Below, piece after piece: positions 51,084 through 53,113 of a stretch of 64,000 nt of DNA (position 1 is the first letter of the stretch; each line of letters opens with the position of its first letter). The notes below the pieces were generated by a model, which worked only from the letters and a program-made list of their open reading frames with translations, did not search any database and was not told where the DNA came from. The position numbers and the translations under genes are program-made. This DNA comes from an uncultured Dysosmobacter sp. (GTDB taxonomy: Bacteria; Bacillota; Clostridia; Oscillospirales; Oscillospiraceae): NCBI RefSeq assembly GCF_947631165.1, contig NZ_CANRKH010000016.1, positions 1-64,000 of the forward strand, written 5' to 3'.

Positions 51084-52118
51084 TTGAAGCTGCAAAACTT
51101 ACAAAAAAGCCCCCGCACCCACCGGTGCTGCCGCCCCACGGTCCTGCTGGCGTTGCTGTTCGCCCTGGCCGCCGGGGCCGCCGCCACCGGCTGGGCTGAA
51201 GCCGTCTACGTCGTTACCGGCCTGGACGACGGGGCCATCGTTTTGGATGGGGCCGGGGAGGCCCCCGACCTGTCCTCCAAGATCCTGCATATCACCTCCG
51301 GCACCAAGGGCTACGACGTGAACCTGTCCTCCGGGCGGCCTGTCACGGTCCGCCATGGCGATGAGGTATATACTGCCAAGAGCAAGCGGGAGACCGTTTC
51401 CACGCTGCTGAAGCGGCTGGGCGTGGTCCCCAGCCCCCTGGAGGGCGTGGCGGTGGACGTGACCGACGCCGGACTGACCATCACAGTGGCGGAGGAGATC
51501 ACCTATTACGAGACCCTGACGGAGGAGGCCCCTTATGACACTGTCCGGGTTGCCAATCCCGAGATGAAAAAGGGAGAGGAAAAGGTGATCCAGGAGGGGA
51601 AGGACGGCGTGCGCACCTCCATCTATGAGATCACCTGGAGCAACGGCACCCAGATGTCCCGCCAGTTCGTGGAAGAGCTGGACAGCACCGCCGTGGATAA
51701 GATCGTGGAGTACGGGACCGCAGCCGCACCGGCCGCCGCGGCCGCGGAGCAGTCGCCCATTGCCAGCGTTTCCAAAAACGCCGACGGCAGCGGCGTGCTG
51801 ACGCTGAAGTCCGGCACGACCCTGCGCTTTTCCAGTGCCAAGACCATGACCGCCACCGCTTATACTGCCGGGTATGACGGTGCGGACTACACCACCGCCA
51901 CCGGCACGTTTGTCCGGGTCGGCACCGTGGCCGTGGATAAGAAGGTCATTCCCCTGGGGACCCGGATGTATATCGTCACCAACGACGGCATCGTCTACGG
52001 CATGGCTGTGGCGGAGGACACCGGCGTGCGGGGCAACAAGGTAGACCTGTATTACGACACCTATCAGCAGTGCATCAACTTCGGCCGAAGGAGCTGCACG
52101 GTGTATATCCTGGAGTAA
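51084..52118 (+). CDS. Secreted G5/3D (cell-wall hydrolase-like) domain protein, TTG start
   Basis: AGGAGG RBS before TTG; G5-like EITYYETLTEEAPYDTVRVANPEMKKGEEKVIQEGKDG; 3D domain MTATAYTAGYDG...KVIPLGTRMYIV...AEDTGVRGNKVDLY. Confidence 0.9.
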   Translation: MKLQNLQKSPRTHRCCRPTVLLALLFALAAGAAATGWAEAVYVVTGLDDGAIVLDGAGEAPDLSSKILHITSGTKGYDVNLSSGRPVTVRHGDEVYTAKSKRETVSTLLKRLGVVPSPLEGVAVDVTDAGLTITVAEEITYYETLTEEAPYDTVRVANPEMKKGEEKVIQEGKDGVRTSIYEITWSNGTQMSRQFVEELDSTAVDKIVEYGTAAAPAAAAAEQSPIASVSKNADGSGVLTLKSGTTLRFSSAKTMTATAYTAGYDGADYTTATGTFVRVGTVAVDKKVIPLGTRMYIVTNDGIVYGMAVAEDTGVRGNKVDLYYDTYQQCINFGRRSCTVYILE

Positions 52119-52136: not shown

Positions 52137-52168
52137 ATGAGCGCCAGCCAAAACGGCTGGCGCTCATG
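52137..52168. repeat. Terminator hairpin, first exact 32-bp copy
   Basis: ATGAGCGCCAGCC-AAAAC-GGCTGGCGCTCATG. Confidence 0.85.
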
Positions 52169-52370
52169 AGACTGTCGAAAAAGTGGCTATGCCACTTTTT
52201 CGAGAAAGCTACGGCCTGCCGCAGCGCACTCGCTGTCCGCCTGGGCGGACAACTCGCACGTTTGCAGGCCGAGATGTGTTTTTTCCGACGTACACGCCGC
52301 CGGAAAAAACAGATCAAAATTCTTTCGCGCCTGCGGGCGCGAACTCTGCGAGACTTTTTCGACAAACTGA
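52169..52370. mobile_element. MITE-like ~202-bp hairpin element with 12-bp terminal inverted repeats
   Basis: TGTCGAAAAAGT...ACTTTTTCGACA TIRs; several internal hairpins; no coding capacity. Confidence 0.55.
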
Positions 52371-52402
52371 TGAGCGCCAGCCAAAACGGCTGGCGCTCAT
52401 GC
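52371..52402. repeat. Terminator hairpin, second exact 32-bp copy
   Basis: Identical to 52137-52168. Confidence 0.85.
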
Positions 52403-52405
52403 TTT

Positions 52406-53113
52406 TTACGTACTGGGGATCCCGTTATCTATGGCATGCAGAAGCTCCGGGAGCTGGGACAGGGCGGTGACGCGGTAGTCCGGGGCTATATCCGGGCGGC
52501 GGGGAGCGCCGTGGGGGTCGAACCAGCAGGTGCGGATGCCGGCGTTGAGACCGCCCCGGATGTCGGAGGTCAGGCTGTCGCCCACCAGCAGGGCCGCTTC
52601 CCGGGAAAAGCCAGGGATGGCAGCGAACACCGCCTGGAAAAAGGCGGGGCTGGGCTTGTCGAAGCCGATGGTCTCGGAGATGAAAATGCCTTTGAAATAC
52701 GGCTTGATGCCCGCGCTGTCCAGGCGGCGGTGCTGCACGGCGGCAGCGCCGTTGGAGACGATGTACAGGTCGTATTGGGGGGCCAGGGCTGCCAACAGCT
52801 CCGGCGCGCCGGGGATGAAGAGATGGCCCTCCGCCAGATGGCCTTCGTAGCGTTCACAGGTCTCCCGGGCGTCCCGGTCCAGCCCTAGTTCCGTGAACAG
52901 CAGCTCGAAGCGGCGGGTCAGCAGCTGGGGACGGGTCACTTTTCCCTCCTCCAGCAGCGCCCACTGGGCGGCGTTGATCTCGTGATAGCGGTCCAGCACC
53001 GCATTCCCGGCGGGGACGTGCATCTCCGTCAGGGCCTTGGTCAGGGCCGCCCGCTCCGCCCGGGCAAAGTCCAGCAGGGTATCGTCCAGATCGAAAAAAA
53101 TGGTTTTCAGCAT
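52406..53113 (-). CDS. HAD hydrolase, YjjG-type noncanonical pyrimidine nucleotidase
   Basis: MLKTIFFDLDDTLLDF; GVGDS-like LLVGDSLTSDIRGG. Confidence 0.92.
   Translation of the reverse strand: MLKTIFFDLDDTLLDFARAERAALTKALTEMHVPAGNAVLDRYHEINAAQWALLEEGKVTRPQLLTRRFELLFTELGLDRDARETCERYEGHLAEGHLFIPGAPELLAALAPQYDLYIVSNGAAAVQHRRLDSAGIKPYFKGIFISETIGFDKPSPAFFQAVFAAIPGFSREAALLVGDSLTSDIRGGLNAGIRTCWFDPHGAPRRPDIAPDYRVTALSQLPELLHAIDNGIPST

Follow-up and report, generated by a model that had tools for sequence, protein, structure and literature searches.

Two convergent genes in the window (the whole 64,000-nucleotide stretch of DNA analyzed here) are separated by a non-coding block that lies between two identical copies of a terminator hairpin, which raises the question of how the block came to be there and why the hairpin is present twice. 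The genes, a 3D-domain secreted-type protein (51084-52118, + strand; named from its C-terminal motif and sequence resemblance) and a HAD-type hydrolase (52406-53113, − strand; named from motifs and sequence resemblance), both point their 3′ ends towards the block. Sequence comparison within the window placed exact copies of a 32-mer, ATGAGCGCCAGCCAAAACGGCTGGCGCTCATG, at 52137-52168 and 52370-52401. The initial annotation was thus correct about the repeat and its first position, but its second copy starts at 52370 and not at 52371. The final G of the 32-mer belongs to the element on the left and to the flank on the right and is a chance extension. When the element ends were set by family-wide junction analysis, the duplication was 31 bp, ATGAGCGCCAGCCAAAACGGCTGGCGCTCAT (52137-52167 = 52370-52400), one base less than the 32 bp first proposed, and the element retained its proposed length of 202 bp (52168-52369). 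The left copy, ATGAGCGCCAGCC-AAAAC-GGCTGGCGCTCAT on the + strand, comprises the whole terminator hairpin and has no T-tract after it; the right copy is the same hairpin followed by GCTTTTT, which matches the intrinsic-terminator pattern on the + strand.

Inspection of the block, GAGACTGTCGAAAAAG...CTTTTTCGACAAACTG on the + strand, revealed terminal inverted repeats at 52168-52184 (GAGACTGTCGAAAAAGT, + strand) and 52353-52369 (reverse complement CAGTTTGTCGAAAAAGT, − strand). The 12-bp inverted ends reported initially, TGTCGAAAAAGT and ACTTTTTCGACA, are present exactly at 52173-52184 and 52353-52364, as are all of the internal hairpins that had been named. On the + strand, a sub-terminal hairpin, TCGAAAAAGTGGC-TAT-GCCACTTTTTCGA (52175-52203), has the same architecture as the left ends of the IS1182-type elements L104, L166, and L093. 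It is followed by a branched stem, CGGCCTGC/GCAGGCCG (52212-52271), around the hairpin TGTCCGCC/GGCGGACA (52234-52251), by a long stem, GTGTTTTTTCCG/CGGAAAAAACA, with a conserved loop, ACGTACACGCCGC (52273-52315), which is the most conserved part of the family, and by a hairpin, TTCGCGCC/GGCGCGAA (52324-52343). The pairs of the branched stem and of the last hairpin covary across copies. The loop of the long stem (window about 52285-52297) occurs in two co-varying forms, CGTACACGCCG and CGCACATGTCG, for which within-stem pairing provides no explanation.

Approximately 10 copies of this sequence are present in the source genome, and the family was found in 36 of the 86 genomes of the same genus. 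An iterated profile gave 85 hits in 79 fetched loci, a few of which overlap. Across the bacterial family, copies were detected in 96 of 201 genomes and in 64 of the 106 genera sampled; elsewhere in the order they were rarer (22 of 197 genomes, 12 of these 22 belonging to the same bacterial family). The end motif TSAGNNTGTCGAAAAAG was present in 48 of the 86 genus genomes, with almost no matches to a reversed control, and it identifies insertion sequences and further MITE families (about 164 bp), most of which lie at a hairpin foot. Dozens of copies of this motif in the genus genomes G061 (83), G074 (44), and G032 (34) suggest recent expansions, and elements of this kind may be active at present; many of the copies in G032 lie near contig ends.

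Where the ends are intact, almost all copies of the element are flanked on both sides by one and the same hairpin, the sequence of which is specific to the site. A flank-to-flank match score of at least 14 was obtained for 29 of the 56 full-length copies, far above chance: left and right flanks drawn at random from different sites reached this score in 0 of 600 mispairings. The majority of these 29 elements begin directly at the 3′ foot of the left hairpin, with 0 nt intervening. About half of the full-length copies now lack a clear duplication, and in most of these the ends are degraded. Among 39 elements with strict ends (MITEs and complete insertion sequences whose ends were set by a motif), pairing extends to 85-90% of the outer seven positions of the duplication. 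An A nearly always precedes the duplication and a T nearly always follows it; the element is therefore most naturally defined as GAG/CAG...CTG within a duplication A[hairpin]T, which by this definition is 19-38 bp long (median 27). The length of the duplication tracks the palindrome and not a fixed stagger.

Perfect duplications were found in many copies. In others, such as L048, the duplicated hairpins have diverged yet still pair, which suggests that both are still useful. In L007 and L079 (and perhaps L034), the two hairpin copies share an unchanged stem but have loops that are reverse complements of each other (GAAT/ATTC, GTAA/TTAC), which suggests that template switching or cruciform processing inverted the loop. 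An array at L072/L034 (G056 contig C66, about 48.7-49.2 kb) contains two tandem elements and three copies of one hairpin, as if the second element had entered an already duplicated hairpin.

The convergent 3D-domain/HAD-hydrolase gene pair is conserved in many relatives. About 15 of these lack the element and have an intergenic terminator hairpin that is present only once. In L169, the closest element-free relative (hydrolase 80% identical), the single hairpin, GGGCGCCAGCC-TGAAA-GGCTGGCGCCC, has the stem core GCGCCAGCC..GGCTGGCGC in common with the duplicated hairpin of the window, and more distant relatives have terminators of different sequence at the same intergenic site. Because element-free relatives have the hairpin but no second copy of it, the second hairpin arrived with the insertion.

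IS1182-family insertion sequences with CAGnCTGTCGAAAAAG-type ends, closely similar to those of the MITE, give hairpin-sized duplications too. Ends of the CAGnCTGTCGAAAAA type are carried by L166, L200, L206, L211, L212, L215, and L220, to be compared with GAGACTGTCGAAAAAG and CAGTTTGTCGAAAAAG at the ends of the MITE, which accordingly has the same ends as the IS1182-family elements. The transposase of L104, a broken copy, carries DUF772 and DDE_Tnp_1_6, and the NCBIfam IS1182 model NF033551 was the best match for all five transposases tested. Scores of 447 and 440 bits (cut-off 270) were obtained with the full-length L148 and L150 transposases. The partial L166, L220, and L223 transposases gave 231-237 bits with NF033551 as best hit, below the cut-off of 270, which may be due to the partial sequences. 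The partner transposase is therefore assigned to IS1182.

A scan of GTDB genomes gave 80 related transposase loci. A duplication could be located in 25 of the 56 insertion sequence loci examined, many contigs breaking inside the element, and each of these 25 elements (∼1.3-1.6 kb) has a copy of a 17-38-nt palindrome on either side. These hairpin-duplicating insertion sequences include about a dozen Chakrabartyella piscis copies as well as examples from Oscillibacter valericigenes, Acetobacterium wieringae, and Anaerotruncus, and in several of them a frame of about 500 codons is open. The source genome has an intact IS1182 transposase on contig C73 (L148), and since the ends of that element differ slightly (CTGTAGACAAAG), the exact partner of the MITE may be absent from this genome or unassembled. 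At L148 (2071-3922), a MITE-like left part, an internal hairpin, and the intact IS1182 element form a composite, the outer ends of which are flanked by a duplicated hairpin, GTTACCGAGAAAATCTCGGCAAC.

The block in the window is short (202 bp, too small for a transposase), non-coding, and bounded by terminal inverted repeats, and its family is multicopy and dispersed over unrelated sites, with a target-site duplication and element-free sites in relatives. It is very probably a non-autonomous MITE, mobilized by a DDE transposase of the IS1182 family for which the stem-loop of an intrinsic terminator serves as target. The initial annotation had offered, as one of two readings, insertion of a MITE-like element whose long target duplication reproduced the terminator; this reading is borne out by the multiple copies, by duplicated hairpins that belong to each site, by the element-free sites, and by the like behavior of insertion sequences with the same type of ends, which would mobilize the MITE in trans.

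Most DDE transposases generate a fixed, short duplication, and ordinary staggered cuts in duplex DNA by a DDE transposase of fixed geometry would not be expected to yield duplications of 19-38 bp. The hairpin-sized duplications can be explained by the following model. In the simplest case, the terminator palindrome would be extruded as a cruciform, bringing the two opposite feet of the hairpins together at the four-way junction. Strand transfer would take place at both of these feet, and gap repair would copy the whole stem-loop, leaving one copy at each element end and a duplication as long as the hairpin. The T-tract would remain with the far copy, and transcripts from either side would probably enter or cross the element before ending. 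A broader proposal is that an IS1182-type clade reads DNA shape and inserts across the base of the extruded cruciform, with the target setting the length of the duplication, and that the MITE carried along by this clade has become established across much of the Oscillospiraceae, where it has doubled host terminators and equipped gene 3′ ends with a structured, covarying cassette; the chances for and against this proposal appear about even.

Extrusion would be dispensable if the transposase recognized A-tract/T-tract borders in the duplex, with duplication of the hairpin a by-product of cutting both borders. Because duplications nearly always start with A and end with T, and often stop at an A/T tract, some probability attaches to such recognition, and cuts are often at the border between GC stem and A/T tract even where A:T pairing could lengthen the stem. 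However, the length range of 19-38 bp and the symmetry of the duplication ends about the palindrome make recognition of the borders an unlikely explanation.

Alignment of 40 sequences of the element folded into several helical regions, and 25 of the 34 predicted pairs showed double compensatory changes. This covariation, together with the presence of the family in 64 of 106 genera, is what would be expected if the element were mainly a conserved structured RNA or 3′-UTR module under host selection, with mobility only ancestral. However, mismatches in the stems (40 G-T versus 32 A-C) were balanced between strands, as expected for folded DNA or for RNA from both strands and not for one transcript; relatives with the same gene pair do not share the window insertion; and many duplications are perfect. 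Such a module is accordingly improbable as the main explanation, more so than border recognition, and a function as single-strand RNA gains no support from the mismatch test. A search of the element against Rfam returned only matches far below threshold, with no family reaching its gathering score. The conservation and covariation of the interior exceed what a plain deletion-derived MITE would need.

The other reading in the initial annotation was recombination between terminators. In this form, or as gradual duplication of a terminator, two pre-existing hairpins would have been left with unrelated sequence between them, consistent with the identity of the two copies and with the frequent occurrence of two terminators at convergent gene pairs. 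By contrast, the same 202-bp element was found between different duplicated hairpins at many loci, the flanking hairpin varying from copy to copy while the element stays constant, and orthologous loci lack both the element and the second hairpin; this explanation is refuted by these observations and has only a very small probability.

Two other kinds of element were considered. REP/BIME sequences are small, intergenic, hairpin-forming, and present in many copies, as is the element described here, and their RAYTs are Y1 HUH enzymes that leave no target duplications. By contrast, the present element has terminal inverted repeats, long target duplications, and same-ended relatives that carry DDE transposases, and a REP/BIME identity was rejected. 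Group IIC introns likewise insert next to intrinsic terminator hairpins but are retroelements with neither inverted ends nor hairpin duplication; this identity was rejected for a 202-bp element with no long or reverse-transcriptase frame and no Rfam intron match.

IS1182-family insertion sequences are stated to target palindromes in a review (Siguier 2015, as cited in PMC5678879 and PMC4923244) that, according to PMC5678879, contains no detailed data. The elements described here resemble these insertion sequences in transposase family (NF033551; DUF772 and DDE_Tnp_1_6), in terminal repeats, and in palindromic or terminator targets, but the window element has no transposase. In the present analysis, whole-hairpin duplication was found at many sites, one of which was compared with element-free relatives. 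In staphylococci, IS1272 and TnSha1, also of the IS1182 family, target stem-loops of no fixed sequence, several of which are confirmed terminators, and IS1272 removes the stem-loop and leaves no duplication (PMC5678879, PMC4923244). Replacement of this type, in which the original target hairpin would have been lost and the hairpins on either side would be part of the element, would account for the common transposase family and terminator targets (PMC5678879, PMC4923244) but is refuted here, and is thus highly improbable, given that the flanking hairpin is site-specific, matches the host terminator of the closest element-free relative, and is present twice.

In the present elements, the stem-loop is instead retained and duplicated. 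In the searchable literature (subscription journals and ISfinder lying outside it), whole-stem-loop duplication by the IS1182 family was found only as “pathway b” of Wan et al. (PMC5678879), to which the cruciform model above corresponds and which those authors presented as hypothetical because IS1272 itself deletes the stem-loop. For one IS1182 element, 2 copies are recorded as having 4-bp direct repeats (PMC3196728); hairpin-sized duplication is thus not universal in the family. The insertion described here is a variant form of palindrome-targeted transposition, and that literature yielded no large natural data set on it, although priority is not certain; nor did it yield an earlier description of this MITE family of the IS1182 group. 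The copies would provide large-scale natural evidence that IS1182-family transposases choose and measure their target by its folded shape, each duplication whose length tracks the folded target being a natural record of structure-guided insertion. They also lead to complete elements, with frames intact, that could be tested directly, and they supply a duplicating counterpart to stem-loop deletion by IS1272, such that two outcomes of one transposase family can now be compared.

The copies are located at the 3′ ends of genes: the neighboring genes are convergent in 33 cases, tandem in 19, and divergent in 2, and the median distance between stop codon and element is 35 nt. Genes were called by open frame and codon-position GC filter only, the filter being needed because antisense frames in GC-rich DNA are as long as real genes. 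Landing after genes with the terminator preserved suggests a low-damage mode of spread. The initial expectation that each flanking gene would keep a terminator needs qualification: the copy nearer each gene has no T-tract after it, and each flanking gene therefore probably terminates at the far copy or within the element. On the + strand of the window, the terminator pattern was matched at the right copy and at a weaker site inside the element; on the − strand, there was no match at the window element. Two of the relatives, L171 and L173, have several tandem repeats of the C-terminal end of the HAD hydrolase gene downstream of its stop codon.
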